From positions 1 to 62,620 of the forward strand of contig CANQBC010000011.1 of the NCBI GenBank assembly GCA_947589225.1: a stretch of DNA of 62,620 nt, in the 5' to 3' direction. The notes below the pieces were generated by a model that did no database searches, was not told the DNA's origin, and saw only the letters and a list, made by a program, of their open reading frames with translations. This stretch comes from an uncultured Oscillospiraceae bacterium (lineage in GTDB: Bacteria; Bacillota; Clostridia; Oscillospirales; Oscillospiraceae). Shown piece by piece: positions 47,471 through 62,620 of the stretch (position 1 is the first letter of the stretch; every line of letters starts with the position of its first letter). The position numbers and the translations under genes were made by a program.

Positions 47471-47480
47471 TCAAGCCAGC

Positions 47481-48026: not shown

Positions 48027-49098
48027 CCTTGTCTCCTCCCTTTATCATCAGTTTTCCAAATCCCGCGGGCGGCGCGCTCCCCGCGCCAAGAAGCCTGGAA
48101 AGGCCCCCGGCGATGTACGAAAGCTTGGCCGCCACGGCTGAGTAATCCATTCTTGTGGGCCCTACCACCCCAATGAGGCCGCGCATCCCGTCCCCCGCCT
48201 CAAAGCTTGCCAGCACAACGGAGGAATCTCGCAGCTCCAGCGCCGCGTTCTCGGGGCCAATCAGCACCTTCACGTCGCCGAAGTCAGACGAGCCGGTGAG
48301 CGCTGAGATATTTTGCGAATCCGAAAGGTAATTTATGAGCCTATGGGCCTTATCAGGATCCTGAAATTCCGGGAGCTTCAGAAGATTTGCCTCACCGGAC
48401 ACGCTTGTCCCCGCGCCTTTTGAGGTCATCAGCGTCTCTATAAGGAAGCCCGCGATGACGCTTGTAAGCCCCATGGAGTCCCCCACCGCGCGCTCCGTGG
48501 AGGTAATGAGGTCGGAGGTTATCTTCTCCTCCATAAGCCCCGTGAAGCTGGCGTTAAACACAGCCGAAAGTCTCCTGAGCAGATCCTCGGTGAAGGAAAA
48601 AGGCAGGTGTACCAGCTTGTTTTTCACCGTGTCGCCGGTGAGAAGCAGCACGATAATAAAGGAATTGGCGTCCAGATAGATGAGATCCACGCGCTTTACC
48701 GTGGCCGGCGACATGGCCGAGATGGTCAGCGCCGGGTAGCTTGTAAGCTCCGTGGCCATCCTTCCCACATCCGCCATGAGCCTGTCGGCGCGGCCGGAGT
48801 GGCTTTGGAGCTTCCGCGTGATCTCGTCAGTCTCGCTATCGGAAAGCTCCCGCTCCCGCATAAGCTCATTGACGTAGAGTCTGTAACCCTTCGCCGTGGG
48901 CACGCGTCCGGCGGAGGTGTGGGGCTGCTCCAGGTAACCCTCCCTGTCCAGCGCCACAAGCTCGTTGCGGATGGTGGCCGGCGAACAGTTTAGCCCGGCC
49001 CTGTTAAGCACAGTCTTGCTCCCCACAGGTTCGGCGGATTCAATGTATTCCTCCACCACCGCTCGAAGGATTTTCTTCCTTCTCTCGCTCAGCTCCAT
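48019..49098 (-). CDS. hrcA: Heat-inducible transcription repressor HrcA
   Basis: The 359-residue repressor binds CIRCE and blocks the heat-shock operon until chaperone demand rises. The winged-helix N-terminus (RRKKILRAVVEEYIESAEPV, then GSKTVLNRAGLNCSPATIRN and EQPHTSAGRVPTAKGYRLYV) is diagnostic. The inserted dimerisation and C-terminal regions (GPTRMDYSAVAAKLSYIAGG) complete the family. It is the first gene of its own regulated operon, 13 bp after the CIRCE element. Confidence 0.97.
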   Translation of the reverse strand: MELSERRKKILRAVVEEYIESAEPVGSKTVLNRAGLNCSPATIRNELVALDREGYLEQPHTSAGRVPTAKGYRLYVNELMRERELSDSETDEITRKLQSHSGRADRLMADVGRMATELTSYPALTISAMSPATVKRVDLIYLDANSFIIVLLLTGDTVKNKLVHLPFSFTEDLLRRLSAVFNASFTGLMEEKITSDLITSTERAVGDSMGLTSVIAGFLIETLMTSKGAGTSVSGEANLLKLPEFQDPDKAHRLINYLSDSQNISALTGSSDFGDVKVLIGPENAALELRDSSVVLASFEAGDGMRGLIGVVGPTRMDYSAVAAKLSYIAGGLSRLLGAGSAPPAGFGKLMIKGGDKDV

Positions 49099-49171: not shown

Positions 49172-49446
49172 TAGGGATATCTACATTTTATAAAAAATTC
49201 AATAATAGGCCATCTCCAAATACGAGCGCCCCCGCGAGTCTGGCGGTAACGGGCCGGTAAAAAAACGCGCAGAGATCTCTTCAGATCCCTGCGTGTCTTA
49301 ATTCCGGCTTATTTTCGCCCACGGGCTTCGCATCCAGCCCGCAAAGGGCGGCGGCCCGAGAGTTTTGCGAAAGGCTTTCGCGCCGCGTATACTTCCTCTC
49401 TGGGCCGTAGAGGCCCCGCGAACCCTCGTTCCGGCTCCCCTTCCTT
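49172..49446. other. Gene-free segment between the hrcA promoter and the pilT gene
   Basis: No gene was seen. It contains the pilus-operon terminator (49257-49296) and, closer to pilT, GC-rich DNA with a GCGAAAGGCTTTCGC palindrome at about 49367-49381. Confidence 0.6.
49257..49296 (-). terminator. Terminator of the composite pilus operon
   Basis: On the minus strand ACACGCAGGGATCT and AGATCTCTGCGCGT pair (with G-T pairs) around loop GAAG, followed by a run of seven or more T. It lies about 150 bp beyond the pilT stop, at the end of the 13-kb run. Confidence 0.85.
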
Positions 49447-50505
49447 TCAACCGTTGAGGCGTTTTACCATGTTCTCATAGTTGGTGCAGGAGAGGAGAGC
49501 CGTATCCCGGGTGATCCTTCCCTCTTTATAAAGCTTGAGGAGGCTCCCGTCCATGGTACACATCCCGTCAGCCGCGCCGGCCTGCATGGTGGAGTCCAGC
49601 TGATGAAGCTTGCTCTCACGGATCATGTTCTGGATCGCCGGCGTGGTTTTCATCACCTCAAAAACAGGCACCAGACCTCCGTTCACCGACGGAACAAGCT
49701 GCTGGCATACCACGCCCTTCAGGATCTGGGCCAGTTGGATCTTGACCTGCTGCTGTTGATTGGCGGGAAAAACGTCGAGAACGCGGTTGATCGTATTAGC
49801 CGCGCCGCTGGTGTGCAGCGTGCTGAGAAGCAGCACCCCCGTCTCCGCCGCGGTAATAGCGGAGGATATCGTATCGTAATCTCTCATCTCACCGAGCAAA
49901 ATCACATCCGGGCTCTCCCGCAGGGCCGAGCGGAGGGCGTCCAGATACCCCGGCGTGTCGATGGATATCTCGCGCTGGGTCACTATGGATCTCTCGTGCC
50001 TGTGGATATACTCGATGGGATCCTCCATCGTTATAATGTGCCCGTCCCGGCTGCGGTTTATCCGGTCGATCATGCAGGCGAGCGTGGTGGATTTTCCCGT
50101 ACCGGCCGCGCCGGTAATGAGCACAAGGCCCTTTTTGTTGTCCGCAAGGCTCAGGACGTTTTCGGGTATCCCCAGCTTCTCCGGATCCGGCAGTCCGAAG
50201 TAGATGACCCGTATCACCACCGCGAGGGAGCCGCGCTGTCTGAATACATTCACCCGGAATCTTCCCAGGTGTGAGACGGAAAAGGAAAAATCGTCGTCAA
50301 TACCGTTCTCAAGGTTCTTCCGGCTCCGGCCGCCGGCCTCATAGATCTTCTCCGCCAGGCTCCGGATCCCGTCGGGCATCATTCGCTCGCTCCCCTGTCT
50401 CTCCTGGTGTCCGTTGCGTTTGAATGTGACCGGCAACCCGGCTATCAGAAAAATATCCGACGCCCCCGCCTCTATCGCCTTTTCCAAAATCGGTATAATT
50501 TCCAC
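49447..50505 (-). CDS. pilT: PilT-type type IV pilus ATPase
   Basis: The 352-residue hexameric ATPase has the PilT N-domain (AIEAGASDIFLIAGLPVTFK), Walker A GAAGTGKSTTLAC near residue 132, the Asp box (IITMEDPIEYIHRHERSIVT), Walker B (PDVILLGEMRDYDTI) and His box (LLSTLHTSGAANTINR). The stretch AIQNMIRESKLHQLDS closely follows the AIRNLIRE motif that marks PilT retraction ATPases rather than PilB assembly ATPases. The length is typical of PilT. GTG start after AAGGAG. It is the last gene of the operon; no PilB gene is present in the window. Confidence 0.92.
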   Translation of the reverse strand: MEIIPILEKAIEAGASDIFLIAGLPVTFKRNGHQERQGSERMMPDGIRSLAEKIYEAGGRSRKNLENGIDDDFSFSVSHLGRFRVNVFRQRGSLAVVIRVIYFGLPDPEKLGIPENVLSLADNKKGLVLITGAAGTGKSTTLACMIDRINRSRDGHIITMEDPIEYIHRHERSIVTQREISIDTPGYLDALRSALRESPDVILLGEMRDYDTISSAITAAETGVLLLSTLHTSGAANTINRVLDVFPANQQQQVKIQLAQILKGVVCQQLVPSVNGGLVPVFEVMKTTPAIQNMIRESKLHQLDSTMQAGAADGMCTMDGSLLKLYKEGRITRDTALLSCTNYENMVKRLNG

Positions 50506-50517
50506 AAATATTCTCCT

Positions 50518-50853
50518 TTACTCGCCTGTCCAAAGGCCGCCAATCGTTTCGTCCTGTTTCCATTCCTTGTCGACCGTCCAGCAAATCACGTCTCCGTTAT
50601 CGTCCAAAGCGACCCTGAGGCGCATGCCGTCCCGTTCAAAGACCGCCTCCGCTCCCGGCTCCGCGGTCAGAAGAAAGCTCTGGCCTTCCCGCTCCAACGC
50701 GTACCTTGTGCTGACAGTGTCGGCGTACCGCTCCGCCAGGGCTCGATCCGCCCGGGCTGTCGCAAAGGTCAGGATGGCCAGTACGGAGAGGCAGATGCAG
50801 ACTACCGTCAAAAGCAGCGATAAAGGTCCCAATCGGATCGGTGTATCTTCCAT
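50518..50853 (-). CDS. Small pseudopilin-like membrane protein
   Basis: The 111-residue protein has one N-terminal hydrophobic helix (LSLLLTVVCICLSVLAILTF, about 12-31) and a short beta-rich tail (AEPGAEAVFERDGMRLRVAL). This is the pseudopilin shape, but the classic G-FxxxE prepilin site is absent. It lies 12 bp before pilT and 3 bp after another pilin-like gene. A minor pilin role is inferred from shape and context only. Confidence 0.5.
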   Translation of the reverse strand: MEDTPIRLGPLSLLLTVVCICLSVLAILTFATARADRALAERYADTVSTRYALEREGQSFLLTAEPGAEAVFERDGMRLRVALDDNGDVICWTVDKEWKQDETIGGLWTGE

Positions 50854-50856
50854 CTC

Positions 50857-51252
50857 TCAGCCGCCCCCATATCGGCTCAAACAGACGGCCGTCTCAAGGC
50901 CGTATATTTCCCGGTCATTCCAAAACACCGTAATAACACTGTACGCAATCCCGCTTCCCGGCTCCCAGGTGATTTGCGCGCGATACTCCCCGTCCCGAAC
51001 CGTCACACCCGCCTCGTCCAGTTCGGCGTCTCCCGTCCTGCTCAACAGCTCACACAGCTCCTCCGCGTCGGAGGATGCCGCCACGGCCTCCGCCGCGTTC
51101 TCCGCCATGCCCACGGCCTTTGTCAGGCGTTCCGCATCGGCGCTGCGGGCGCGGGCCGCCCCGAACACCGTGGAAAGCGCCAGAATGACCGCCACAAAAA
51201 CAAGTATCAGCAGGAGCGTCTCAAAATAAAACGCCGTTATATGCTTTTTCAT
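50857..51252 (-). CDS. Pilin-like protein with degenerate prepilin motif
   Basis: The 131-residue protein begins MKKHITAFYFETLLLILVFV. A hydrophobic helix starts right after a short basic leader and carries Glu in the position where pilins have Glu5 (AFYFETLLL), but the residue before cleavage is Thr or Ala, not Gly. The rest is a soluble, mixed alpha/beta tail ending in CLSRYGGG. It overlaps the DUF4860 gene by 4 bases (ATGA). Likely a minor pilin; processing by a prepilin peptidase is uncertain. Confidence 0.55.
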   Translation of the reverse strand: MKKHITAFYFETLLLILVFVAVILALSTVFGAARARSADAERLTKAVGMAENAAEAVAASSDAEELCELLSRTGDAELDEAGVTVRDGEYRAQITWEPGSGIAYSVITVFWNDREIYGLETAVCLSRYGGG

Positions 51253-51710
51253 TCCGATCCCTCCCAAGTCCTCAGGCTCAGGAGAGCCTCTCCCGCATCC
51301 GTGCGTATTTCCATGACCCCCGGCTCAATAAACTCCGCCGTGAACACGGACGTCTTTCCCAGCGCGCTTGCCTCGTCAGGGGCAAGCGGCGCGTCCACCG
51401 CGCTGTACTCCTCCATCAGATATCCCTTATATCGATATATACGCACCGCGTATCCGGAGCCGTCCTCGACCACAAGCTCCGGCCCCGTCTCACTGTCCCT
51501 GATTCGGACATTCCCGGCGCTGTCACCGCCCTTTACGCAGGCCGCCAGATACGACAGCAGCGCCCTGGAGTTGTTGTTGCCCTCCTGTCCAGCCGCCACA
51601 GCCTGATAAGTCCGCGCTCCAAACATGACAAGGAGAAGGAGCCCCGCCCAAAAAAGCGCGGCGATCCCCAAGGTATATAGCCCCAGCGGCGATCCGCCTT
51701 TGCGTTTCAT
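51249..51710 (-). CDS. DUF4860-like protein
   Basis: The 153-residue protein begins MKRKGGSPLGLYTLGIAALF, a basic leader and then one hydrophobic helix, followed by YQAVAAGQEGNNNSRALLSY, AACVKGGDSAGNVRIRDSET and a beta-rich C-half. This matches DUF4860, a family found beside type IV-like genes in Clostridia. It could be a pilin-like subunit. Its start is taken at MKRKG because AGGAG lies upstream; a further ATG 6 codons earlier overlaps this. Confidence 0.6.
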   Translation of the reverse strand: MKRKGGSPLGLYTLGIAALFWAGLLLLVMFGARTYQAVAAGQEGNNNSRALLSYLAACVKGGDSAGNVRIRDSETGPELVVEDGSGYAVRIYRYKGYLMEEYSAVDAPLAPDEASALGKTSVFTAEFIEPGVMEIRTDAGEALLSLRTWEGSE

Positions 51711-51745
51711 AAGCTCTCCTCCCTCCATTTATCTTCTGGGCCGCC

Positions 51746-52066
51746 TTAGTGCTCCCTTACCGTCACCCGGATCTCCGGCGGAATGTTTGAGGCGAACGCA
51801 TCATACGTCACGTAATAATCCTCATGGTTGATCTGAAGCCCGTAGTGCTCCTCAAGGTACTTGAGATTCGGGGGGTATACCCCCTCCACCACAAAGCATT
51901 GGAGCGCCCCGCGCTCCACCGCCGCCTTCAGCGACGCGGCGCTCTCTTCCTCCATGTCTCCGTTCATGATACCGCCGGCGAGGGCATATGCCCCCAGGGC
52001 AACCAGCAGTAAAAGAGCCAGCGCTATAAAATATGGCGCGCGGCTTTTTCTTCTGTCACTGTACAT
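51746..52066 (-). CDS. Small membrane-anchored pilus-associated protein
   Basis: The 106-residue protein has a basic N-terminus (MYSDRRKSRA), one membrane helix (PYFIALALLLLVALGAYALA) and an outer segment with AVERGALQCFVVEGVYPPNL and KYLEEHYGL. The ALQCFVVEGVYPP segment recalls the early helix-loop of pseudopilins. It lies 9 bp after the PilC-like gene. The family was not identified. Confidence 0.5.
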   Translation of the reverse strand: MYSDRRKSRAPYFIALALLLLVALGAYALAGGIMNGDMEEESAASLKAAVERGALQCFVVEGVYPPNLKYLEEHYGLQINHEDYYVTYDAFASNIPPEIRVTVREH

Positions 52067-52075
52067 GTCCGCCCC

Positions 52076-53110
52076 TCACCCGATAGCGTTCATCATTCCG
52101 ATGAGCGGCAGCATAACGCTCAAAAGAGAAAGCCCCACTGTAAGCATCAGCACGCCGGACAGCAGCGGATCCACCACAGCCACGAGCCTGTCCACCATAT
52201 TGCCGCAGCTCCGCTCCAAAAGACCCGTGAGCCGTTGAAGAACCTGCTCCATGTTGCCGCTCCGCTCACCGGCCAGGAGCATCCTGCCGTACACCGGCTC
52301 AAACAGATCCTCGCTGTATGCCGCGCTGGCGATGCCGCGGCCCTCCTCCATGAGCTTCAGACACCTTTTAAGTTTTTCCTCCACCGGGGCGTAATCCACC
52401 ATTTTCATGCTGTCGATCACCGCAACGTCCTGCATCTCTCCGCTGGCCAGGAATGTGGACAGAGCCGAGGTGAATCGGAACATTCCCATGCTCTCGAGTA
52501 TCCCGGCGCATATGGGGATCCGGCGTAAAACCGACTCCACCACCGGGCGCTTTCCGCTCCGCCACAACAAAAGCCCCGTTACAAGGGCCGCCGCGAGCAG
52601 CACCATCACCGCCAGCGCCGCGTAGCAAAAGCCGTAAGCCCAACGTATGTACCCATAGCTGGACGCGGTCAAGCTCCCCGACAGGCTCTCATAGACGCCG
52701 GTAAACGTGGGCAGGACCATTGTCAGCATCACCGCCAGCACCGCGATGATCAGCGTGAGCATCGCCGCGGGGTACGTCACCGCGTTTCGGAGCTTCTCGC
52801 CAATGCTTTTCTGCTCCGTGTAATACCGGGAAAGCCTGAACAGAACATCCTCAAGGCGGCCCGAGGACTCGCCGGCGGCAACCATTTTCAGGGCATAATC
52901 GGGGAATATGCCGCTCTGCTCCATGGCCGCGTGGAGACCTTCTCCCCGCTCGACCGCCGCCTCCATTACCTTGAGGCCCTCCTCCAGTACGCCGTCGCCC
53001 TCTTTTCTCAAAAGGCCGATGGCCTCGTCTACCTGGATCCCGGAGCCCAGCATCATCGCCACGCTCTCACAAAACGCGCTGACACCCAATTCATCCAGTT
53101 TCTTGCTCAT
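52076..53110 (-). CDS. pilC: PilC/GspF-type inner membrane platform protein
   Basis: The 344-residue protein has the GspF/PilC layout: two repeated cytoplasmic domains (FCESVAMMLGSGIQVDEAIG, and in the second half FRFTSALSTFLASGEMQDVA) with family motifs MVAAGESSGRLEDVLFRLSR and MLLAGERSGNMEQVLQRLTG, and three membrane helices. It anchors the ATPase and pilin assembly in type IV pilus or type II secretion machines. It is a little shorter than the usual 400 residues because the N-terminal tail is missing. It lies 9 bp after the transglutaminase-like gene. Confidence 0.88.
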   Translation of the reverse strand: MSKKLDELGVSAFCESVAMMLGSGIQVDEAIGLLRKEGDGVLEEGLKVMEAAVERGEGLHAAMEQSGIFPDYALKMVAAGESSGRLEDVLFRLSRYYTEQKSIGEKLRNAVTYPAAMLTLIIAVLAVMLTMVLPTFTGVYESLSGSLTASSYGYIRWAYGFCYAALAVMVLLAAALVTGLLLWRSGKRPVVESVLRRIPICAGILESMGMFRFTSALSTFLASGEMQDVAVIDSMKMVDYAPVEEKLKRCLKLMEEGRGIASAAYSEDLFEPVYGRMLLAGERSGNMEQVLQRLTGLLERSCGNMVDRLVAVVDPLLSGVLMLTVGLSLLSVMLPLIGMMNAIG

Positions 53111-53119
53111 TGGCTCACC

Positions 53120-54058
53120 TCAATATTCATAGACATCCGAGTAGTTTCCCCCATCCCCGATAAACTCGCCGTTCGTTCCGTTCGCGGAGAACGTCAGGTC
53201 GAGACGGCTCCATTTCCCCCCGGAAACCTGGTAGTCGACCGTTACCCAGCCTGTCTCATCCGTGTAAAACATATTCCACGCGTGATATAGATCGTCCGGG
53301 GACACATAGCCGAAGATCACCCTGGTCGGTATCCCCTGGCTGCGCAGCATCGCCGCCGCAAGGGAGGCGTAATCGAAGCAGATGCCCTTCCCCGTCCTCA
53401 TTGTCTCGTCAATGTCCGGCAGATAGCCGCTTTTCACGTCTTTTGCCTTCTGCGTGTCGTACGACACATGTCCGCAAATGTACTCGAACACCGCGGAGAC
53501 CACCTCCACGGCTGTGGCGCAGTCTTTCGCCAGCTCCTCCGCCTTTTTCACACACTGGGAATCCTGTGCGTAGTTCACGTAGTCACTGGGTCGGGTGAAG
53601 GGCTGGAACTCATCCAGAAGGGTGACCTCCGCCTCCTCACTGTACTTTTCCGCGTACTTGGTGTCCGTCACATTCTCCATCACCCGGAATTTGTACGTCC
53701 CGTTCCCGCTCTGAATGGGGAATACGGAGGGGGTACCATCCGATTTGATGTCGTAGGTGTATTTTATGTCGTCCTTGACCACCTGGAATTTCAACCGCGC
53801 GTCGGATACGGCCGATACCGCCACGTACCCCTCTGAAAGCGCGGACAAGTCCAGCTTGACGCCATTCTTTTCCTCCGTGTCGTGGAAGCTCGCGTCCTTA
53901 AACGGCGGGGCCTTATAGGGGGTAAGCTCCCCGTTTCCGTCCGTATTCATATCAGAGCCCGGCACCGTGTTGTTTGGCCCCACAGGCCCGCCTTGTTTGC
54001 CGCAGCCGCCGATAAGGCAAAGGGTCAGCAGGAGTGCCAATATTTTTTTGCGATCCAT
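53120..54058 (-). CDS. Transglutaminase-like lipoprotein
   Basis: The protein begins MDRKKILALLLTLCLIGGCG, a lipoprotein signal with a LIGGC lipobox. A linker and a beta-rich region follow; the C-terminal third is a transglutaminase-like domain with Cys in GKGICFDYASLAAAMLRSQG, His in YHAWNMFYTDETGWVTVDY and the following Asp. These can be proteases, crosslinkers or peptide-binding folds. The start at 54058 begins the signal peptide; an ATG at 54082 overlapping the sortase stop is the alternative. Its place between sortase B and PilC suggests a role in cross-linking or trimming surface proteins. Confidence 0.82.
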   Translation of the reverse strand: MDRKKILALLLTLCLIGGCGKQGGPVGPNNTVPGSDMNTDGNGELTPYKAPPFKDASFHDTEEKNGVKLDLSALSEGYVAVSAVSDARLKFQVVKDDIKYTYDIKSDGTPSVFPIQSGNGTYKFRVMENVTDTKYAEKYSEEAEVTLLDEFQPFTRPSDYVNYAQDSQCVKKAEELAKDCATAVEVVSAVFEYICGHVSYDTQKAKDVKSGYLPDIDETMRTGKGICFDYASLAAAMLRSQGIPTRVIFGYVSPDDLYHAWNMFYTDETGWVTVDYQVSGGKWSRLDLTFSANGTNGEFIGDGGNYSDVYEY

Positions 54059-54078
54059 ACTGTCCCGGCCCCCTGGTC

Positions 54079-54933
54079 TCATTCTTCAATAGGCTCCCCA
54101 CCGGCGCTGTCCACCGGCACAAGCATCCCATGTACCACAAATCGCGCGTCCTGGAAGGAATAGGCGCAGGTGGAAAGCACCACATAACGCGCGTCATCCA
54201 CGGGCTTCGCCGGAGGTTCGACTACCGACTGACCCGTCATCTTTTCCAGGTATTCGTCAAGCTCGATACTGGGGCCTCTGAAGATGGTGTATGTGTCCGA
54301 ATACGCGGATATGGTATAGCAGCTGATTATTTCCACCCTGTAATCCCGCTCCGGCGTAAGCAGCCAGAACACCGGGTGGTCGTCCAAAAACTGCTGGTCG
54401 CCCCATTTTCCAAGCTGTCCGAACATGCTCCCGTCGCGCATATGATGCCCGTAGATTATGGTATTGCTGTCCATAAAATCGCCGCTGTTCGCGCTTTCCA
54501 TAAATATGGAGCCGCTGGTCAAATAATTCCCAAGATAATCGTGGTGCAAATACTCGTCGTTATCGTCCCCCCGCAGCACCGGGTAATTGATGAGCGTGTC
54601 CTCGCAGTAGATCCACCCCACCACGTCCTCGTTGACGGCGCGAAGAGACGCGAAATCCACAACGATCGGCGCCAGATCCGCCTCGTTTCCCGCCGGATCC
54701 TCCCCGCCGCCGGTACTCACGCCGCCGTCCGATTCACCGCCGAGCGGTCCATCGTCAGAACTCGTGTCGCCCAAGGGCTTTTGGGGATTGACGGTCACAA
54801 ATTGACCCGCCGCGGCCTCGTAAATTTTCTGGCCCTTCTTGTAGGCGAGAAACTTTGAGCCTATTTCCACCGCGGAGAAAACGAATACCGCCAGTATCAC
54901 AAGGAAGATGCCGGTCTTCAGCCACCTTTTCAT
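54079..54933 (-). CDS. srtB: Class B sortase
   Basis: The 284-residue transpeptidase has an N-terminal membrane helix (about 6-26), a Ser/Gly/Asp-rich linker (SSDDGPLGGESDGGVSTGGG) and the sortase barrel. Catalytic residues are His in NTIIYGHHMRDGSMFG, Cys in VLSTCAYSFQDARFVVHG (near residue 256) and the following Arg. The long beta6-beta7 segment (TISAYSDTYTIFRGPSIELD) is the class B feature. It should attach specific proteins to the wall. No clear NPxTx-type substrate lies nearby. It is 4 bp after the signal peptidase gene. Confidence 0.9.
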   Translation of the reverse strand: MKRWLKTGIFLVILAVFVFSAVEIGSKFLAYKKGQKIYEAAAGQFVTVNPQKPLGDTSSDDGPLGGESDGGVSTGGGEDPAGNEADLAPIVVDFASLRAVNEDVVGWIYCEDTLINYPVLRGDDNDEYLHHDYLGNYLTSGSIFMESANSGDFMDSNTIIYGHHMRDGSMFGQLGKWGDQQFLDDHPVFWLLTPERDYRVEIISCYTISAYSDTYTIFRGPSIELDEYLEKMTGQSVVEPPAKPVDDARYVVLSTCAYSFQDARFVVHGMLVPVDSAGGEPIEE

Positions 54934-54937
54934 TGTT

Positions 54938-55483
54938 TTACTCCTCGTCCGAGGCGCGTCTCCGATCCCGGAGGCGTCCCGCGATCAAATTGAGCATGGC
55001 GCCGCAGGCGGCAATGATTATGACATAGATTTTTCCCACGGTGCTTGATAAGAAGCCCAAAAGATTGCCGACCACGGGAAAATGGCTCTTAACGCGCCCT
55101 ACCACCGCTTCATAAGGCACGGCGTTCAGATCCTCGCCGGCGTTGGCGTCGCCCTTCGTAGTAAGCTCCCCCTCGACCGTCTGATTCCTCACGACTCTGT
55201 GGGCTATCACTCCCGCGCCGCTCATGAAGGCTATGACGTCTCCCTCTTGCAGTTCCACCGGTTCGACCGTCTTCACATAGAGCACACTCCCCACGGGGAT
55301 CTCCGGCTCCATGCTGGGGCTCGTCACATTATAGATCTCATATCCCAGCGCCCTGGGCACCGCCACCGGCAGACATGCCGCGATAATGGCCACCAGTATC
55401 AAGGTTCCAAACAGGTTACAAAGGGCGGGAAATAACTTCCCGCCCTTTGTATTCCGATTGGGAGAAATCGGATCTTTACTCAT
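54938..55483 (-). CDS. sipW: SipW-type (ER-like) signal peptidase I
   Basis: The 181-residue membrane protease uses a Ser-His dyad. Ser57 lies in VTSPSMEPEIPVGSVLYV and His95 in GVIAHRVVRN, where bacterial-type enzymes have Lys. It has an N-terminal helix (21-41) and a C-terminal helix (VGKIYVIIIAACGAMLNLIA). SipW cuts TasA-type precursors in Bacillus. It overlaps the MucBP-like gene by 4 bases (ATGA) and follows two TasA-like genes in the same operon, which are the likely substrates. Confidence 0.88.
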   Translation of the reverse strand: MSKDPISPNRNTKGGKLFPALCNLFGTLILVAIIAACLPVAVPRALGYEIYNVTSPSMEPEIPVGSVLYVKTVEPVELQEGDVIAFMSGAGVIAHRVVRNQTVEGELTTKGDANAGEDLNAVPYEAVVGRVKSHFPVVGNLLGFLSSTVGKIYVIIIAACGAMLNLIAGRLRDRRRASDEE

Positions 55484-56382
55484 TCTTTTTCTTTCCCCTT
55501 ACTCTTACCTTTCCTGAATATAAGCAGCCAGAATGCAATACCCACCGTCAGAATCGCGCCTCCGGCGATAGCCAGCTTCGCTGTTGTGGACAGAGTGGTG
55601 ACATCGGGAAGTATTTGTGTGGATCCCGGCGCGAGAGGCGTATCATTATCGTCAAGATCTTCATACTCCGAAGGGCCGCCGGGTGTGGTCTCTCCCGGAA
55701 GGGTCCCTTCGCCGCCGGGGCCGGAATCGGGCGGGATGACCTCGCCGCCGGGACCGGGTTCGACCTCTCCACCGCCCTCGCCGCCGGGCGTGGGACGGGG
55801 CGTCTGTCCACCCTCCTGAACCACGCTGGAGGTGGTGACCGGCGCATACACGAAGGTAAATACATTTTCCGCCGCGTTTTCGCTCAGGGTCTTTCCAAGA
55901 CTGTACGCCTGAGGCTCATATCCCTCGATGTACTGATACGCGACAACGGGCTTATCGCCCACATTGCCGTAATAGGTGTTGGAGGGGTAGATCTCATTGC
56001 CGTTGACGTCTTGATAATTCACGGTGTAGGCCACCGAGCTGCCCAGAATCCCGTAGGCGACCACATAATCGATATCGCCGCGTACCAAAATAGACGGACT
56101 GCTGACGGTGCTGTTGTCCTTTCCGCTCTCACGTATGCCCTTGACGTAATACTTGCTGTCCTCAGGCAGTTGGACTCGGTTAATGTTAAAATTGATACGC
56201 GTACCGTAGGCCACATTCTCGTAAACCACCAACGGCTCCCCGTCAATGGTTCCCTGCGCGCCCGCGAAAACGCGCACGGTGTATGTGTATCCCTCTGATT
56301 CCGCCGCCATCGCGGGGAACGCCATCGCGGCCATGAGGCAAACGGCCATGACTGCCGCAAAAAACCTGACGCGGTTCTTCAT
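55480..56382 (-). CDS. MucBP-like surface protein with C-terminal membrane anchor
   Basis: The 300-residue protein has a signal peptide (about 1-26, ending AFPAMA), then YTYTVRVFAGAQGTIDGEPL and a MucBP-like repeat AYTVNYQDVNGNEIYPSNTY with YQYIEGYEPQAYSLGKTL. A Pro/Gly/Glu-rich spacer (about 185-245) leads to a hydrophobic helix (LAIAGGAILTVGIAFWLLIF) and a basic tail. There is no LPXTG, though ILPDVTTL precedes the helix. It is probably a surface adhesin or anchor of the fibre. It is 1 bp after the next surface protein gene. Confidence 0.75.
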   Translation of the reverse strand: MKNRVRFFAAVMAVCLMAAMAFPAMAAESEGYTYTVRVFAGAQGTIDGEPLVVYENVAYGTRINFNINRVQLPEDSKYYVKGIRESGKDNSTVSSPSILVRGDIDYVVAYGILGSSVAYTVNYQDVNGNEIYPSNTYYGNVGDKPVVAYQYIEGYEPQAYSLGKTLSENAAENVFTFVYAPVTTSSVVQEGGQTPRPTPGGEGGGEVEPGPGGEVIPPDSGPGGEGTLPGETTPGGPSEYEDLDDNDTPLAPGSTQILPDVTTLSTTAKLAIAGGAILTVGIAFWLLIFRKGKSKGKEKE

Positions 56383-56383
56383 G

Positions 56384-57124
56384 TCACATTCCCTCCTTAT
56401 CCGAGTCTCCCCGGGCCTTCCGGGCGTGCCGGCGGCCCAGCAGACTATACAGCGCGAGACCCAGAAGCAGTATTCCAGACACGCCCGCGGCGATGATGTA
56501 CGGGGTCATGCTGTCGTCGCCTGTGTAGACGATGGTGGTTTCTCCCGTGTTGAGCTCAACGGCGAAATTCATCTGGAGATCCGCCAGGGTATCCTGATAG
56601 CCGTTGCCCTGGGACTCGCCGTCAAGGGCGACCCGAAGGGTGATCGTGCCAACATCTCCCGTTTCCAGGGTATCGAGGTAGAAGAAATTCTTCAAGGCGC
56701 TGGTGGCTTCATTGAGGCCCTCGCCGGCCTCGCTTTTATCCTCGCCGCCGACGGTATCGCTGTCAAAGAGCACATTCTCCTCACCGTCAGGCGACGTATA
56801 TACAAGCGTGTAGGTATAGGCGCCGCCGCTGGCTGTTTTGCTCCGATCCTCAAGGGACGCGAGAACCTTATTGGTCATGTACCAATTTGTCGTCTCCCTG
56901 TGGTCATTGGCCAGCTTCAGGGTTATGATAACATCGTCCCCGGGCTGCATGCCCAGTATTATGTCGTCCATATCGGAGGACTTAAAGCTGCTTGACATCT
57001 TTGCGTCAGCCGTGAACGCGACACGCCAGTCATCCTCGCCAACAAAGGTTTTGGCGGAAGCCGTCCCCGCGAGGGCGGTCATCAGGATCAGAACGACAAG
57101 TATTGAGGCGATCTTCTTTTTCAT
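56384..57124 (-). CDS. Membrane-anchored surface protein of the pilus operon
   Basis: The 246-residue protein has a signal peptide (ending GTASA), a beta-rich outer domain (WRVAFTADAKMSSSFKSSDM, PGDDVIITLKLANDHRETTN, TLETGDVGTITLRVALDGES) and a C-terminal helix (YIIAAGVSGILLLGLALYSL) with a basic tail. The outer domain recalls the TasA/camelysin fold. No sortase motif is evident. It lies 12 bp after a TasA-like gene and may anchor TasA-like fibres in the membrane. Confidence 0.65.
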   Translation of the reverse strand: MKKKIASILVVLILMTALAGTASAKTFVGEDDWRVAFTADAKMSSSFKSSDMDDIILGMQPGDDVIITLKLANDHRETTNWYMTNKVLASLEDRSKTASGGAYTYTLVYTSPDGEENVLFDSDTVGGEDKSEAGEGLNEATSALKNFFYLDTLETGDVGTITLRVALDGESQGNGYQDTLADLQMNFAVELNTGETTIVYTGDDSMTPYIIAAGVSGILLLGLALYSLLGRRHARKARGDSDKEGM

Positions 57125-57136
57125 GTGACTCCCCCC

Positions 57137-57901
57137 TTAGTCAAGGCTCAGGACGCCGGACTGCTCGTCTACGGAGACCTGTCTGCCCCACGCGCTCAGC
57201 GCGGCGGCCTCGGCATTGTCCTCCTGGACCGCGTCCACCTTGGCCTCAACAATAAACCGCGCGCCGTTGTAGTCATAGACCGACGTCGTGGTACCGTCCT
57301 CTCCCGTGACCTGGCTGACAATGTAGGCGATCTCACCGTTTATCGTCAATGTATCCGCGAAAATGGGGGACTCCTCACCCGAGTTGAGCAGACGGCTATA
57401 ATACAAGATCGTGCGCTCCGGAGTGCGCGCTGACTCGTCCTCAAGCCAGTCTGTGCCAATGTTCACAAAATGCAGATCGATGTAACCGGGATCCAGGTTC
57501 AGAAGCTTTTCTCCGTTTTCATCGACCCAATATTTGTATATCCTGACGCGCGCGTATTGGTTGATGGTGCCGCTGTTCCTGATCTTCAACTCCTCGGCGT
57601 ATGTTTTGCCCAAGGTCAGTTTTTCGCCCTCGGGGAGCATATTCCCCACCAGCGCACCGATATTCTCGTCCCACTGGCCGTCGGCCTCCTCGCCGTAGTT
57701 TCGCCAGGAAATGTCTCTGTCGTTCTCCATAAGGGTAACGCCGATATCAAACAGCTCCACATGGGAAGCGTAAGTCTCGGAGAAGTACGTCAGAGCGGCC
57801 CGCGCCCCGCCGACAGAGCTGAAGATCAAAAGTCCGGCCGCCGCCACGAAGGCGGCAACGGTGACTACCGGGGAAAAGATGAATTTCTTAAACCGTTTCA
57901 T
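57137..57901 (-). CDS. TasA/camelysin-like fibre protein
   Basis: The 254-residue protein has an N-terminal helix and a SipW-type cleavage region: SSVGGARAALTYFSETYASH, then VELFDIGVTLMENDRDISW. An A-x-x-FS-E/D-T block followed by xxVxLxE is the mark of SipW-dependent signal peptides. The mature part (NSGTINQYARVRIYKYWVDE, then YIDLHFVNIGTDWLEDES) resembles the TasA/CalY beta-sandwich. ATG 57901 overlaps the preceding stop by one base. It should be secreted and processed by the SipW-type peptidase encoded four genes on, and may polymerise. Confidence 0.72.
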   Translation of the reverse strand: MKRFKKFIFSPVVTVAAFVAAAGLLIFSSVGGARAALTYFSETYASHVELFDIGVTLMENDRDISWRNYGEEADGQWDENIGALVGNMLPEGEKLTLGKTYAEELKIRNSGTINQYARVRIYKYWVDENGEKLLNLDPGYIDLHFVNIGTDWLEDESARTPERTILYYSRLLNSGEESPIFADTLTINGEIAYIVSQVTGEDGTTTSVYDYNGARFIVEAKVDAVQEDNAEAAALSAWGRQVSVDEQSGVLSLD

Positions 57902-58392
57902 CAACCGTTCCCCCCTTTCTCAGCCGACGACCAATCGGCGTACGGATTGTCCTCGCTGTCGTACTTGACATGGGTGTACTCATAGACCACAATAACGTTA
58001 AAGCTGTCGTTGTCGCCGGGATCCAGGGGAATATTGTCGATGTGGACAAGAAGCTCGTTGGCGCTCTCGCCGGGCCCAAGAGGATCGGCATAGTAGTAAT
58101 ACCCGTCGTCCGGGTTATACGACCAGCCGTCGCCGCTGTACTGGAGGTGGAACTGGCTGCCGGCAAAAGCCCTGGCCCTCACGTAGACGGGTTGGCCGTC
58201 CTCCGCGTTGGTCACGGAAACATGCTTCGTCCAGTTATAAAACCTCTCCTCCACCGTAGCCGGTTCAATGGTCACCTGATAGCCCCCCTGTGCCTCGGTA
58301 TAGGTAGTGAAGTACGCGGCGGCTTGGGGAACAGACACGGACGTCACCATGATCACCGCCAGGGCCAGCAGGAGCAATGTTCTTTTTTTCAT
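57901..58392 (-). CDS. Small SipW-dependent secreted protein
   Basis: The 163-residue protein has a signal peptide ending VPQAAAYFTTYTEAQGGYQV, again an AYFT-x-xT-EA block typical of SipW processing. The mature part (GQPVYVRARAFAGSQFHLQY, then PGDNDSFNVIVVYEYTHVKY) is beta-rich and small, like camelysin-type minor fibre proteins. It overlaps the next TasA-like gene. It might start or cap the fibre, by analogy with TapA. Confidence 0.65.
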   Translation of the reverse strand: MKKRTLLLLALAVIMVTSVSVPQAAAYFTTYTEAQGGYQVTIEPATVEERFYNWTKHVSVTNAEDGQPVYVRARAFAGSQFHLQYSGDGWSYNPDDGYYYYADPLGPGESANELLVHIDNIPLDPGDNDSFNVIVVYEYTHVKYDSEDNPYADWSSAEKGGNG

Positions 58393-58407
58393 CCGAGATC
58401 CCTCCTT

Positions 58408-59442
58408 TTACGGTCTATCAGGGAAGGGGGTCCAGTCCCAGCCGCTGCCCTCGGTATATGTGAAGGCGTTTTTTATGGAGCCGCCGGTCCTGGGAACGTC
58501 AACGGGCCCGTTGGTGAATTCGACCGTGACGTTCTCCTCGGCGGAGAATACCGCCTTCTGTGTGGGATCTGAGGTACATTCGTAGGACGCGCCCGAGTAG
58601 ACCTCCGTGACCGTCACCTCGGCGCCCACCGGGATCCCCTCCACGTCCAGGCTTTTTGTATCTGCCTCGGTAAACACAATGGAAAACACGTCGCTGAAAA
58701 CGAGCCGTCCCTCGATCCTGGCCTCGATGGAGAAAACGAAGGTCGCCGGACTGCCCTTGTATTCGGTAAGTGTCTTTACGATCTTTATGCCGTCAAGGCG
58801 CGGCTCCTGCTGAGGCTTGAGCGTCACCTTCACATAGTAATTCCAGGGAGCCGTCAGATCCAGATGCTCGTTCACCACGTCCTTGCCTGGCACATACACC
58901 AGCTCCGGGAGGAATTTGTATCTGTACTGCTCAGACTGCGCCGACGTGGCGATCCACTTTTCACCGTTATCTCTCTTGACGCTGGTGACATAGTTGGTAA
59001 GGTCGCTGCCTCTGGCAACGACCAGATAAAAGCCCGCGTCAAGTCCTTCGAGCTTCGTTCCCGCCTCGGCGCCAAGGACAGCGGGCTCCGGGGGCGTCTC
59101 GGACTTGAGGGCAATCTGCGCGGCCTGCTGCTCCAGCTGATCCCAGCCGGCCCGGTCGGCGGTCGTTTGAATGACCAGCCCCTCAAAAGGCTCCTCCGCA
59201 TTGAATGTATCCAACGTTTCATAGACCTCGGGCTCGACAGCCGCCACTTTGTAGAGATCCACAACGACGTTTGCCTTCCCGACATCCTCCGCAATGTCGC
59301 CTCCTCCGGCGTAGACGGTAAGCGAACATTTATGATCATCCACAAGCTCGGCGGCCCGCGCGGATCCGCTCGTCCCGGGCGCCGCAGCCATCAGCGCGCA
59401 CGCCAGTGCGAAGGCGGCAATGGCTTTCCATTTACCTTTCAT
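58408..59442 (-). CDS. Pilin-like subunit (Spy0128/FctA-type) lacking a membrane tail
   Basis: The 344-residue secreted protein has a signal peptide (ending GSARA), an N-domain resembling the pilin N-module (CSLTVYAGGGDIAEDVGKAN, EGLDAGFYLVVARGS), and a C-domain resembling the Spy0128/FctA pilin fold (DGIKIVKTLTEYKGSPATFV, IPVGAEVTVTEVYSG) with a Lys/Glu pair suited to an isopeptide bond. Near the end VPRTGGS recalls an LPXTG site, but no hydrophobic helix follows; the protein ends WTPFPDRP. It could be a tip or secreted subunit. It is 15 bp before the TasA-like gene. Confidence 0.7.
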   Translation of the reverse strand: MKGKWKAIAAFALACALMAAAPGTSGSARAAELVDDHKCSLTVYAGGGDIAEDVGKANVVVDLYKVAAVEPEVYETLDTFNAEEPFEGLVIQTTADRAGWDQLEQQAAQIALKSETPPEPAVLGAEAGTKLEGLDAGFYLVVARGSDLTNYVTSVKRDNGEKWIATSAQSEQYRYKFLPELVYVPGKDVVNEHLDLTAPWNYYVKVTLKPQQEPRLDGIKIVKTLTEYKGSPATFVFSIEARIEGRLVFSDVFSIVFTEADTKSLDVEGIPVGAEVTVTEVYSGASYECTSDPTQKAVFSAEENVTVEFTNGPVDVPRTGGSIKNAFTYTEGSGWDWTPFPDRP

Positions 59443-59467
59443 AGGCGCTCCTCCTCACTTTCTTTGA

Positions 59468-60340
59468 TCAAGGCTTTTTCTTGAACTCATCCAACAGCTC
59501 GCTGTTGGGCTTTCTCGGTTTTCTAACGCTCAGCGTTATAAACATGACGGTCAGCAGGACAAACAGGATCGGTATGGCCACCATGGGTATCACGATATAG
59601 GGCTGGATACGGTTGGCCTCTCCGACGATGACAACGGCCTCCCTGGCGTTCTCTATCCGCGTGCCGCGCACCAGCATCCTGTGACTGTTGACGCCGTAGG
59701 GAGTGCAGGTAATAAGCGTGCAGTAATCCCTGCCCTCCTCAATGGCCAGCTCATCGAGCTCATACGGGTACACGATCCTGATCTGGTCGACCATGTATGT
59801 GATCACTTGGTCAAGGACGGTTATTGTAAACACATCCCCCACCACAAGGTCGTCAAGATCCGTAAACAGGCGGGCGGAGGGCAGCCCCCTGTGTCCCGAA
59901 ATGGCCGTGTGGGTGCTCTCCCCGCCTATGGGGAGGGATGTCCCGGTCAGATGGCCCGCGGCCACCTGCAAGACCATCTCGGAGGTGCCGTGGTATATGG
60001 GCAGGCTCACGTCTATCGCCGGGATCTGCACATATCCCATGATGCCGGTGCCGGTGAGATCCAGCAGCTTGTCGTACTCCGCCTGCTCCTCCTCGGATAT
60101 GACGAAATGGATGCCCTCCTTCGCCAGGCGCCGGTTGTACTCGTTTGCCGCGGCGATGGCTTTCTCGCGCTCGTTGTCCGTCATGTTCTCCACCGTCCGG
60201 ACATACGAGGCGACCGCCTTTGACTGATGGAAGGAATTCCACCAGTCAGCCACCGTGGGATAAAGCAGTAAGACAAGCCCCGTCAGAAGAATGATCCCCA
60301 AAAGAAGTGTGGACCAGTGCCTTTTAAAAAACTTCGCCAT
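59468..60340 (-). CDS. srtC: Class C (pilus) sortase
   Basis: The 290-residue pilin polymerase has membrane helices at both ends (LLLGIILLTGLVLLLYPTVA and IVIPMVAIPILFVLLTVMFI), the hallmark of class C. The catalytic residues are His in THTAISGHRGLPSARLF, Cys in ITCTPYGVNSHRMLVRG and the second Arg in that motif. The lid region before the core (ILDLTGTGIMGYVQIPAIDV-like LLDLTGTGIMGYVQIP) is present. It cross-links LPETG pilins. ATG 60340 follows AAGGAG. It lies 105 bp after the pilin gene with a strong hairpin between. Confidence 0.92.
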   Translation of the reverse strand: MAKFFKRHWSTLLLGIILLTGLVLLLYPTVADWWNSFHQSKAVASYVRTVENMTDNEREKAIAAANEYNRRLAKEGIHFVISEEEQAEYDKLLDLTGTGIMGYVQIPAIDVSLPIYHGTSEMVLQVAAGHLTGTSLPIGGESTHTAISGHRGLPSARLFTDLDDLVVGDVFTITVLDQVITYMVDQIRIVYPYELDELAIEEGRDYCTLITCTPYGVNSHRMLVRGTRIENAREAVVIVGEANRIQPYIVIPMVAIPILFVLLTVMFITLSVRKPRKPNSELLDEFKKKP

Positions 60341-60374
60341 ATAAGGGCTCCTTACCAACGCTCGTTTGTCTCCC

Positions 60375-60409
60375 CCGCGGGCCGCGCCGTGTTCGGCCGC
60401 GGCCCGCGG
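60375..60409 (-). promoter_or_regulatory. GC-rich hairpin between pilin and sortase genes
   Basis: CCGCGGGCCGCG and CGCGGCCCGCGG pair perfectly over 12 bp around an 11-nt loop. No T-run follows, so it is more likely an RNA processing, stabilising or attenuation element that sets pilin/sortase ratio than a full terminator. Confidence 0.6.
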
Positions 60410-60444
60410 AGTCCGCGATGCTTATGTACTCCTGTTTTATCCTC

Positions 60445-60605
60445 TCAGCCGTCGTATTTGCTCATGCGCTTCCGGACGACCAGCAGAACGGCCGCTCCGA
60501 TCACCAGCGCGGCGCCCAGGACGTAGAAGATGGTGGTGCCGATGCCGCCGGTCTCGGGAAGGGTCAGGCCCTTCTGGTTGACGACGTCGGTGGAAAGGAT
60601 TCCCG
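60445..60605. repeat. 161-bp direct repeat, copy 1 (pilin 3' end)
   Basis: This matches 62246-62406 with a single base difference, covering LPETG, the membrane helix and the tail. A second shared block (60721-60795) is identical to 62546-62620. The DNA between the two blocks differs between the genes. Confidence 0.95.
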
Positions 60606-62130
60606 ACGGCACACGCTCCCATCCCTCATTACGGGTTGCAGGGATCAACGTCGTTTCGGACTCTATGCCTTCGGCTCCTGTGTCTTTCAGCTCGTTATGG
60701 GCAAAGTCTGCTTCCACCTTAAAGACGATATCCTCCGCCTTGTTGTAGCCGGCGGGAACGGTGGACTCGACCAGCTTGTACCAGCCCTCGTCCAGTCCCT
60801 TGGCGTGGAAGGTGTACCCGTCGCTATCACCATCCAGCGGCTTGCCGCCATCCCAGTGGTAACCGCTCATGTCGTCGGGGACGTCGGCCTTTTCGGGGGC
60901 GTCGTCGCCGAACGAAACGCCGTCGTCGGGGATCAGCTTGTAAATGGTGAATTCAGCGCCCTTCAGGCCCTTGTTCTCGCCGTCCTTCTTGTGGACGTTG
61001 AGCTGGAAGGTGTAAACATCAACCACATAATCTTTGGTCTTGCCCATGCTTTCGCTCTCAGGGTCGTTGGAGAACTCGATGTGGCTCATATTCTGGTTGC
61101 TGCCGTCGTACCACCCGTCTGTTGATTCGTTTTCATCCAGCGTGGCGTCGTACCACCCGGCTGTTGCGTTTTCATTCAGCGTGGCTGTGTACTCCAGGTA
61201 AACGGTGGCGCCCTGAGGGACCTTGAAGTCCTTGATGTTGTTGCAGGTCCAGGTCAGGACATTACCGCCCTTGTACATATCCTCTGTTCCGCCATATGGT
61301 TCGGTTGAATACGTAAATGAAGTAAGCGGTTGGTGAGTGTCCGGCTCCGTTGCGTCAGCACCCTCCGCGACCCAGTATATCGTCGCATCGTTGTTGTAGG
61401 ACAGACCGGCGCTCATGGTATCAACAAATTTCAGTACATAGGTCTTGTACGCGTCATAGTTTTTGTCCTTTATGACCGCGGTGATCCGGAAGGGGATCTT
61501 GTCGCCGATGGCATAGGCGGCCCTTCTACCATACTCAGAACCCTCCTTGTTGTCCTTTACCTTCTTTTCGGAGGAGGGAACGTCGTATTTCCGCGTAACC
61601 GTGATATCACGGGAGAGCTGGAGGATGAGGTCGTTCTTAACGGAGGCTCTGTCGTCGACATCGGTGATGTCAACAATAAGGTAGTAGCCCAGGGGAAGCT
61701 TCGTCCCAGTTCTCCTAAGCTTCGTTCCGTTCTCGGTGAAAAACTCCTTGGCGACCCTGGCGAAGGCGCGAAGCGCACTTTGATTTTTCTCCGGTATGTC
61801 CGAAAGCGCCTCGGCAACGCTCGCCGCGTCGGCGGTCACACCATCATCAAAGTACTCTTTAATTGTCTCGTCGGCCTTAAGGGCGTCAACAAACGCGCCG
61901 ATCTTGTCTTCATTGATCCCGTTGCCCCATTTAATGCCGCCGATGGGGCCGTTGTCATCCGTGACGTCCTGGCTGTCGCCGGTGAAGATCTGGTAGGCCA
62001 TGTATTGGTGGCTATCTTTGACGGTCACGGTCGCGGTTGGCGCGCCTTCCGCCGCCAGCGCGACGGTCGCCAGGCTCAGAAGCATGGCCGCCGCCAGAAG
62101 GATCATCCCGAATTTTTTACATTTTTTCAT
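60445..62130 (-). CDS. LPETG pilin (SpaH/EbpB-type backbone)
   Basis: The 561-residue protein has a signal peptide (MKKCKKFGMILLAAAMLLSL, ending VALA), an N-domain (ATVTVKDSHQYMAYQIFTGD), a middle domain with RIPFRITAVI-like IPFRITAVIKDKNYDAYKTY, a Cna-B-like C-domain (VHKKDGENKGLKGAEFTIYK, then YKLVESTVPAGYNKAED), and a sorting signal LPETGG, hydrophobic helix and RKRMSKYDG tail. The VESTVPAGYN and E-box segments are typical of sortase-assembled backbones. ATG 62130 follows AAAGGGG. Within it is a 13/14-residue tandem repeat (see 61105-61185). The tail is near-identical to the next pilin. Confidence 0.92.
   Translation of the reverse strand: MKKCKKFGMILLAAAMLLSLATVALAAEGAPTATVTVKDSHQYMAYQIFTGDSQDVTDDNGPIGGIKWGNGINEDKIGAFVDALKADETIKEYFDDGVTADAASVAEALSDIPEKNQSALRAFARVAKEFFTENGTKLRRTGTKLPLGYYLIVDITDVDDRASVKNDLILQLSRDITVTRKYDVPSSEKKVKDNKEGSEYGRRAAYAIGDKIPFRITAVIKDKNYDAYKTYVLKFVDTMSAGLSYNNDATIYWVAEGADATEPDTHQPLTSFTYSTEPYGGTEDMYKGGNVLTWTCNNIKDFKVPQGATVYLEYTATLNENATAGWYDATLDENESTDGWYDGSNQNMSHIEFSNDPESESMGKTKDYVVDVYTFQLNVHKKDGENKGLKGAEFTIYKLIPDDGVSFGDDAPEKADVPDDMSGYHWDGGKPLDGDSDGYTFHAKGLDEGWYKLVESTVPAGYNKAEDIVFKVEADFAHNELKDTGAEGIESETTLIPATRNEGWERVPSGILSTDVVNQKGLTLPETGGIGTTIFYVLGAALVIGAAVLLVVRKRMSKYDG
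61105..61185. repeat. Imperfect 42/39-bp tandem repeat inside the pilin gene
   Basis: Unit 1 (61105-61146) and unit 2 (61147-61185) share GTCGTACCACCCG, GTTTTCAT and CAGCGTGGC blocks; unit 2 lacks one codon. They encode two versions of L-x-E-N-x-[ST]-x-GWYD in a surface-exposed stretch. Confidence 0.75.
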
Positions 62131-62245
62131 TCCTATTTCCCCTTTCAAATATTTTTCCAGGTTAAAAGAACTTACTTGGTTTGCCGCCGGAGACTATGCT
62201 CGTGTTATCTGAAATTTCACCGCCGTTGATATTGACTTTGGCGTT

Positions 62246-62406
62246 TCAGCCGTCGTATTTGCTCATGCGCTTCCGGACGACCAGCAGAACGGCCGCTCCG
62301 ATCACCAGCGCGGCGCCCAGGACGTAGAAGATGGTGGTGCCGATGCCGCCGGTCTCGGGAAGGGTCAGGCCCTGCTGGTTGACGACGTCGGTGGAAAGGA
62401 TTCCCG
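62246..62406. repeat. 161-bp direct repeat, copy 2 (pilin 3' end)
   Basis: Partner of 60445-60605. Near-perfect identity, beyond what protein conservation needs, indicates recent duplication or gene conversion. Confidence 0.95.
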
Positions 62407-62620
62407 TCTCCTCCGACCCCGCGGTAGTCGTAGGTTCTTCTTCTTGAATTATCGGGGCGACATGGGAATTGGCGATCTTCTCGGGCGTTACGCCGCCGGC
62501 GCCGGTCTCATTCAGCTTTCCGTTATCAAGATCCGCGCTCACCTCAAAGACGATATCCTCCGCCTTGTTGTAGCCGGCGGGAACGGTGGACTCGACCAGC
62601 TTGTACCAGCCCTCGTCCAG
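62246..62620 (-). CDS. Second LPETG pilin, C-terminal part (cut by window edge)
   Basis: Only the last 124 codons are in the window. They encode EGWYKLVESTVPAGYNKAED, a short variable stretch (GKLNETGAGGVTPEKIANSH, then EEEPTTTAGSEETG), and a sorting signal LPETGG plus hydrophobic helix and RKRMSKYDG tail. The frame is open to the edge, so the gene continues beyond 62620. It precedes the first pilin by 115 bp in transcription order and is probably a tip, ancillary or alternative backbone subunit assembled by the same class C sortase. Confidence 0.9.
   Translation of the reverse strand: MDEGWYKLVESTVPAGYNKAEDIVFEVSADLDNGKLNETGAGGVTPEKIANSHVAPIIQEEEPTTTAGSEETGILSTDVVNQQGLTLPETGGIGTTIFYVLGAALVIGAAVLLVVRKRMSKYDG

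Follow-up and report, generated by a model that had tools for sequence, protein, structure and literature searches.

A gene row from an uncultured Oscillospiraceae bacterium joins sortase-pilus and TasA-like genes to an apparently PilT-only, prepilin-peptidase-independent type IV filament module

According to the accessible part of a 2023 review (PMC10191384), every type IV filament system has a pilin, a prepilin peptidase, an extension ATPase and a platform protein. The Com pilus is termed minimal, with eight components, in the part of its description available (PMC10790768). On the side of non-motor fibres, the accessible sections on the SipW-BsaA matrix operon of Clostridium perfringens state that the nearby sortase is not required for BsaA polymers (PMC7395162). 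Here we describe a row of 17 genes on contig CANQBC010000011.1 of an uncultured Oscillospiraceae bacterium (assembly GCA_947589225.1), which holds relatives of these systems side by side. The window, that is, the whole stretch of DNA analysed, is the entire contig of 62,620 bp.

From the comparison of loci, the row consists of two separable modules. Module 1 contains pilins, a class C sortase, a DUF5979 protein, three TasA-like proteins, a MucBP protein, SipW and a class B sortase (SrtB). Module 2 is a unit of seven genes in the order transglutaminase lipoprotein, pilC, sm106, DUF4860, sm136, sm111 and pilT. We propose that module 1 produces wall-attached fibres and that module 2 forms a reduced version of the type IV filament machine, a reading on which we are evenly divided. 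The parts of module 1 are of known kinds and the novelty lies in module 2, apparently a PilT-only, prepilin-peptidase-independent variant of the type IV filament. Within the accessible parts of the open-access literature, including PMC4471445, PMC3244431, PMC6668835, PMC6916266 and PMC8726730, we found no description of this seven-gene module. No open-access paper on DUF4860 was found.

The seven-gene PilC/PilT module

The genes of module 2 are as follows, in the order of transcription.

53120..54082, minus strand: transglutaminase-like lipoprotein, first gene of the module (PF01841, Transglut_core, 85.5 bits)
52076..53110, minus strand: PilC/GspF platform protein (PF00482, T2SSF, 129 bits, two stretches)
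51746..52066, minus strand: sm106, pilin-like, of major-pilin/GspG type by its structure model
51249..51728, minus strand: DUF4860 protein, minor-pseudopilin-like (GspJ type), with the DUF4860 family over its curated cut-off and a structure model
50857..51267, minus strand: sm136, pilin-like, Glu5 kept (87/87 rows) and Gly-1 lost (present in 2/87); the ATG at 51252 is probably its start
50518..50853, minus strand: sm111, a single N-terminal membrane helix in the alignment, no family over cut-off, pilin-like by its place only
49447..50505, minus strand: PilT-family ATPase (TIGR01420, 407.7 bits, cut-off 319.1; T2SSE over cut-off)

We compared 93 loci with this module. They comprise the window, the best 80 of 274 PilT relatives, stretches from genomes of the same family and two from another family. 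The 80 relatives were chosen by PilT identity, so the counts favour close relatives. Eleven stretches were fetched from family genomes; one of them, L117, is apparently the same locus as L054 and is not counted. In 82 of the 93 loci, all seven genes lie on one strand and in this same order. Ten loci are incomplete (nine at contig ends, and L126 without the transglutaminase gene), and one is rearranged, its pilT lying on the opposite strand. Of the seven genes, the one for the transglutaminase is the least constant member of the module.

A PilT of this class occurs in 35 of 150 family genomes, always with module genes beside it. G003 and G032 were left out of this number, their PilT having 51% identity but adjoining a PilB-like match. 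DUF4860 was found in 42 of 391 genomes of the class, against none of 14 named controls. G266 was rejected as a carrier. Its DUF4860 score (20.3 bits) is below the cut-off and PF00437 has no match, so it probably lacks the module.

The catalytic residues are intact. In PilT, the Walker A lysine, the Walker B glutamate and the His box are present in 87 of 87 rows and the AIRNLIRE-type residues are conserved, and the protein belongs to the PilT/PilU family. The transglutaminase lipoprotein conserves its cysteine and histidine in 83 of 83 rows and its aspartate in 82. For all residue and motif counts, rows with X, very long rows and nine truncated loci were dropped. The T2SSF domains of PilC mark it as a type IV filament platform.

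The structure models of sm106 and the DUF4860 protein have pilins or pseudopilins as their best matches. The fold is clear in the DUF4860 model and moderate in that of sm106. Sm136 is placed as pilin-like by Glu5 and by its homology to canonical pilins, and homologues at the same place in the operon carry the N_methyl pilin motif. None of the four small proteins has a class III signal peptide ending in Gly-1. More precisely, the G-x4-E motif near the membrane helix appears in 0 of 86 sm106, 0 of 87 DUF4860, 2 of 87 sm136 and 3 of 86 sm111 rows. Profile searches of the solved-structure sequences with sm106 and DUF4860 gave no credible match. Two similar operons without a recognised transglutaminase gene (L178:7826-12021 and L179:7249-11143) have an sm136 counterpart with the canonical pilin cleavage motif. 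It is possible that operons of this type represent the ancestral state.

Pfam scans of the 17 operon proteins found no PilB, PilM, PilN, PilO or PilD, and no prepilin peptidase dedicated to the operon. There is no extension ATPase of the PilB/GspE/ComGA kind either; the sole ATPase of the operon is of the PilT family. Beyond the operon, 23 of the 35 module-bearing family genomes have no match to Peptidase_A24 (PF01478). Neither was the N-terminal domain of the prepilin peptidase (A24_N_bact) found in those 23, while the positives G000 and G108 were matched. Among family genomes of good quality (at least 90% complete and at most 5% contaminated), Peptidase_A24 is absent in 13 of 22, and no PilB-scale ATPase was found in these 13. 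The single-contig genome G296 carries the module with one PF00437 match and no Peptidase_A24 match; sm111 was not recognised there.

Several results weigh against a peptidase-independent machine. Of the 35 family genomes, 12, this one among them, encode Peptidase_A24 at another place. The peptidase is also found in 30 of 41 further genomes with DUF4860 (27 of the 34 of good quality), where Peptidase_A24 was searched alone, without A24_N_bact. In such peptidase-positive genomes, processing in trans at a site without glycine is possible. The Peptidase_A24 search recovered 12 of 14 controls and can miss real enzymes. Its absences can mislead, because the Lactococcus lactis control was missed and matched only by A24_N_bact, and because a canonical pilin motif occurs in G505 and G362 without a Peptidase_A24 match. 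As for the fold, the Foldseek E-values are poor (0.2 and 1.4, none below 0.001 for either model). The fold assignment depends on VIA-align Z, and for sm106 an unrelated structure at rank 10 (3.9) is close to ranks 4-9. For sm111, its place is the one feature that marks it as pilin-like. Finally, the transglutaminase gene was not seen upstream in G054, G086 and G147, and it is downstream of pilT in G028.

Some of these results would also fit another explanation, in which module 2 serves as an accessory to a Tad system or a canonical type IV pilus and uses PilB and the prepilin peptidase in trans. The genome under study has a separate canonical locus on another contig (C26), which encodes PilB, PilT and PilC together with a canonical-motif pilin and a prepilin peptidase, and the frequency of Peptidase_A24 across the class-wide DUF4860 genomes points the same way. 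Nevertheless, the 13 good-quality family genomes without a Peptidase_A24 match or PilB-scale ATPase argue against a partner in trans, as does the loss of Gly-1 in 85 of 87 sm136 rows. We consider the accessory role quite unlikely. The PilC/PilT set of the operon is not the canonical type IV pilus of this genome.

Module 1 and the layout of the row

Module 1 precedes module 2 on the same strand. Its genes, and the hairpin that follows the whole row, are listed below.

62246..62620, minus strand: LPETG pilin, 3' part only (Gram_pos_anchor 30.8 bits, cut-off 20)
60445..62148, minus strand: LPETG pilin of backbone type (GramPos_pilinBB, SpaA and Gram_pos_anchor over cut-off); an ATG start at 62130 is more likely
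59468..60358, minus strand: class C (pilin) sortase (NF033745, 275.1 bits, cut-off 160)
58408..59442, minus strand: DUF5979 protein, apparently secreted (PF19407, 30.0 bits, cut-off 25)
57901..58392, minus strand: TasA/BsaA-like protein 1 (TIGR04090, 23.4 bits, below the cut-off of 60; 10-row alignment)
57137..57904, minus strand: TasA/BsaA-like protein 2 (TIGR04090, 19.0 bits, below the same cut-off; 10-row alignment)
56384..57124, minus strand: TasA-like protein 3, so named by its place, with a C-terminal TG, membrane helix and basic tail that resemble a sorting signal
55480..56382, minus strand: MucBP-like surface protein with a C-terminal membrane helix (PF06458, 15.5 bits, below the cut-off of 23)
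54938..55483, minus strand: SipW-like signal peptidase (Peptidase_S26 over cut-off; TIGR02228, 88.6 bits, cut-off 51.85; SipW model 74.3, below 190)
54079..54933, minus strand: class B sortase, SrtB (TIGR03064, 191.4 bits, cut-off 153.75)
49268..49293, minus strand: terminator-like hairpin of 11 pairs with a T-run, 3' of pilT (terminator scan)

The initial annotation described 17 tightly packed genes on one strand, and the scan of open reading frames (ORFs) bears this out. All 17 are on the minus strand from 62620 to 49447, and 14 of the 16 junctions are gaps of at most 25 bp or overlaps. Three overlaps are of 4 bp and one of 19 bp, which shrinks to 4 bp if the ATG start of sm136 is used. The only wide junctions (97 and 86 bp) are on both sides of the complete LPETG pilin gene. 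At the 3' end, the strong terminator that had been claimed corresponds to a terminator-like hairpin after pilT (49293-49268). It has the longest stem among the listed sites, but taken together sites of this type are no more frequent than chance predicts (17 against 15.4 expected). At its 5' end the operon is cut by the contig end, inside a pilin. Rfam and tRNA scans of the window gave no matches. Look-alikes of hrcA, grpE, dnaK and dnaJ, an ordinary set recognised by eye without a family search, are directly downstream on the same strand (44028-49098); because of them, co-direction alone is weak evidence.

The C-terminus of the cut pilin nearly repeats that of the next one in tandem. These near-identical ends probably caused the break in the assembly, and they are a possible source of pilin variation by recombination. 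If the contig numbers correspond, the genomes of L035 and L070 have a pilin homologue some 0.4 and 1.1 kb further upstream than the fetched stretch reaches, which fits the same order.

The sortase pilins, class B sortase, PilC and PilT that had been placed in one row all match their families over curated cut-offs. The LPETG backbone pilin and class C sortase constitute the parts of a sortase-assembled pilus, and the Sortase family is matched twice over its curated cut-off in the operon. The SipW-like protein passes the model for archaeal-type signal peptidase I and falls under the SipW equivalog model, and TasA-like proteins 1 and 2 score far under the curated cut-off of the SipW-dependent TasA/BsaA family, so that their assignment is weak. 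Protein 3 has no match to this family. Profile searches of the solved-structure sequences with proteins 1 and 2 gave no credible match. No C-terminal membrane anchor is seen in the translation of the DUF5979 protein.

In TasA-like protein 3, T201 and G202 are invariant in the 10-row alignment, and its remote counterparts end in NPQTG/NPRTG or SPDTG. Signals of the (S/N)PxTG type suit class B sortases. In L061 (4767-6236), a single ORF of 489 amino acids has a signal peptidase domain at its start (weak, below cut-off) and a sortase domain at its end, an apparent fusion of SipW and a class B sortase. L160 (contig C14 of G461) has two copies of the TasA-like/DUF5979/MucBP set within 20 kb. Sortases and LPXTG proteins are located between both copies, and the tails of its TasA-like protein 3 are NPQTG/NPRTG.

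Linkage of the two modules

The initial annotation had proposed either a single composite organelle or a coregulated set. We examined the gene order in 58 module loci with at least 5 kb of upstream sequence. The order TasA1-TasA2-TasA3-MucBP followed by the transglutaminase gene, pilC and the rest to pilT recurs in 9 of them, besides the window. Among these nine, srtC is beyond the stretch in two and SrtB was not found in five. On the other hand, TasA2 is missing beside the PilC/PilT set in the other 49. This also counts against our proposal, in that serving TasA fibres cannot be what module 2 does in general. Among the loci listed, 13 others show no TasA-like gene, and several neighbours there resemble housekeeping genes by eye.

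The two modules also meet in a second arrangement. In G411 and G479, of another family, TasA2-TasA3-MucBP and a BTAD regulator with its partner are divergent to the seven module genes. Conversely, G461 carries the two sets on different contigs, and in G532 about 190 kb separate them on a single contig. In the fragmented genome G115 they are likewise on different contigs, and the 16 kb of its module locus contain no TasA-like gene. TasA-like genes with a BTAD regulator and no module beside them are found in G532 and G355. The TasA2 profile matched 5 of 150 family genomes at E <=0.001, strongly in two (G000 and G115), and 17 of 391 class genomes.

A PilT tree was built from 57 loci that have 2 kb or more of upstream sequence. 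The distribution of its 10 TasA-linked rows requires 6 changes, of which well-supported branches force at least 4. The rows are nevertheless more clustered than expected from shuffling the labels, which gave a value as low in 2 of 500 cases. A single clade was rejected, the linked rows being monophyletic in 0 of 200 bootstrap trees. There may have been one gain with repeated losses. From these arrangements, the linkage is recurrent but optional.

Sortase genes also recur beside module 2. In 10 of 64 loci, one immediately precedes the transglutaminase gene. L061 and L079 are included in this count, their apparent overlap being an over-extended transglutaminase start, and the calls in L035, L070, L079 and L121 depend on our own profile alone. 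As upstream sortases we rejected L090 and L110 (other surface proteins), L113 (no sortase match) and L098 (no Pfam match). In G091 (L124) a sortase gene is directly behind pilT, and sortase-like genes, by profile only, adjoin the module in G056, G108, G006 and G028.

The BTAD-type regulator (about 400 amino acids; PF03704 31.3 bits in L084) or its small partner (about 140-190 amino acids) lies within the stretch fetched for 60 of 89 module loci, on either side, and is absent from the window. They are downstream of pilT in L036, L045, L084, L110 and others, and upstream in L161 and L162. In L119, L120 and L121, the regulator, a sortase, the transglutaminase gene and the pilT module are in one row, where no TasA-like genes were found.

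How closely do the modules cooperate? At one extreme, TasA-like and LPETG subunits would be physically joined to the PilC/PilT motor and driven by it. The order kept in the window and nine loci scattered on the PilT tree, together with the divergent arrangement, would agree with such an organelle. Nevertheless, most module loci have no TasA2, and the modules are non-adjacent in three genomes, the outcome that by the criterion of the initial annotation would refute an obligatory single organelle. To our knowledge, TasA-like and sortase fibres elsewhere need no motor and are normally thought motor-free. In C. perfringens, according to the accessible sections, BsaA polymerises even when purified from E. 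coli (PMC7395162). We regard the driven composite as improbable.

At the other extreme, independent surface modules would be stacked for co-expression, sharing regulation and not mechanism. The many PilT sets without TasA2, the variable upstream neighbours and the TasA-like genes without DUF4860 in G355 agree with such stacking. It accounts less well for a PilT module whose neighbours repeatedly include sortases, TasA-like sets and one and the same BTAD regulator, in differing arrangements, and we hold it to be unlikely. The gene neighbourhoods support a linked, perhaps co-regulated set, and a functional link between the modules is plausible.

Proposed working and comparison with described systems

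In our proposal of wall-attached fibres beside a reduced filament machine, the LPETG pilins would be polymerised by the class C sortase into fibres attached to the wall. The TasA-like subunits would be processed by SipW, and the class B sortase would most likely be the enzyme that attaches TasA-like protein 3 by its TG-containing tail. In module 2, PilC would form the platform. The four pilin-like proteins would be inserted in the membrane without leader cleavage and assembled uncleaved. The single PilT-family ATPase, acting alone on PilC, would drive a short membrane-tethered pseudopilus in and out, and the transglutaminase-like lipoprotein would act on proteins of the wall or the fibres, outside the membrane. 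From the recurrence of sortases and TasA-like sets next to module 2, we infer a role in the display, anchoring or cross-linking of surface proteins, with TasA-like fibres as one client.

Module 2, conserved and with intact catalytic residues, seems to be without two of the four components that the review holds universal. Should it be functional, some members can do without pilin cleavage and PilT can act alone, which would break a rule thought universal for type IV filament machines. The module also makes it possible to test concretely whether a motor in the cytoplasm can act for fibres that depend on sortases or SipW.

Module 1 resembles the SpaA/FctA-type sortase pili in its LPETG backbone pilin and class C sortase. 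Here, however, TasA-like, SipW and PilT modules come after them. It also resembles the SipW-BsaA matrix operon of C. perfringens, which has SipW, BsaA-like proteins and srtB nearby (PMC7395162, accessible sections). Compared with that operon, the row has three TasA-like proteins and MucBP, a sorting-signal-like tail on protein 3, and the sortase pilins and PilT module in the same row; the sequence similarity is weak.

Module 2 shares PilC and PilT homologues and the pilin-like fold of two subunits with the type IVa pilus. It differs in that PilB, PilM, PilN, PilO and PilD are not in the operon, and the genome has its type IVa-like locus elsewhere. The Com pilus (ComGA-GG and ComC) is likewise encoded by a minimal operon, with one ATPase, one platform, few pilins and no PilMNO, as far as the available part of its description goes (PMC10790768). 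In contrast, the ATPase of module 2 is of the PilT family, with 121.9 bits for the ComGA model (cut-off 300), and its platform protein reaches 111 bits for ComGB (cut-off 240). Module 2 has four pilin-like proteins without the glycine cleavage site, no prepilin peptidase in the set, and usually adds a transglutaminase lipoprotein.

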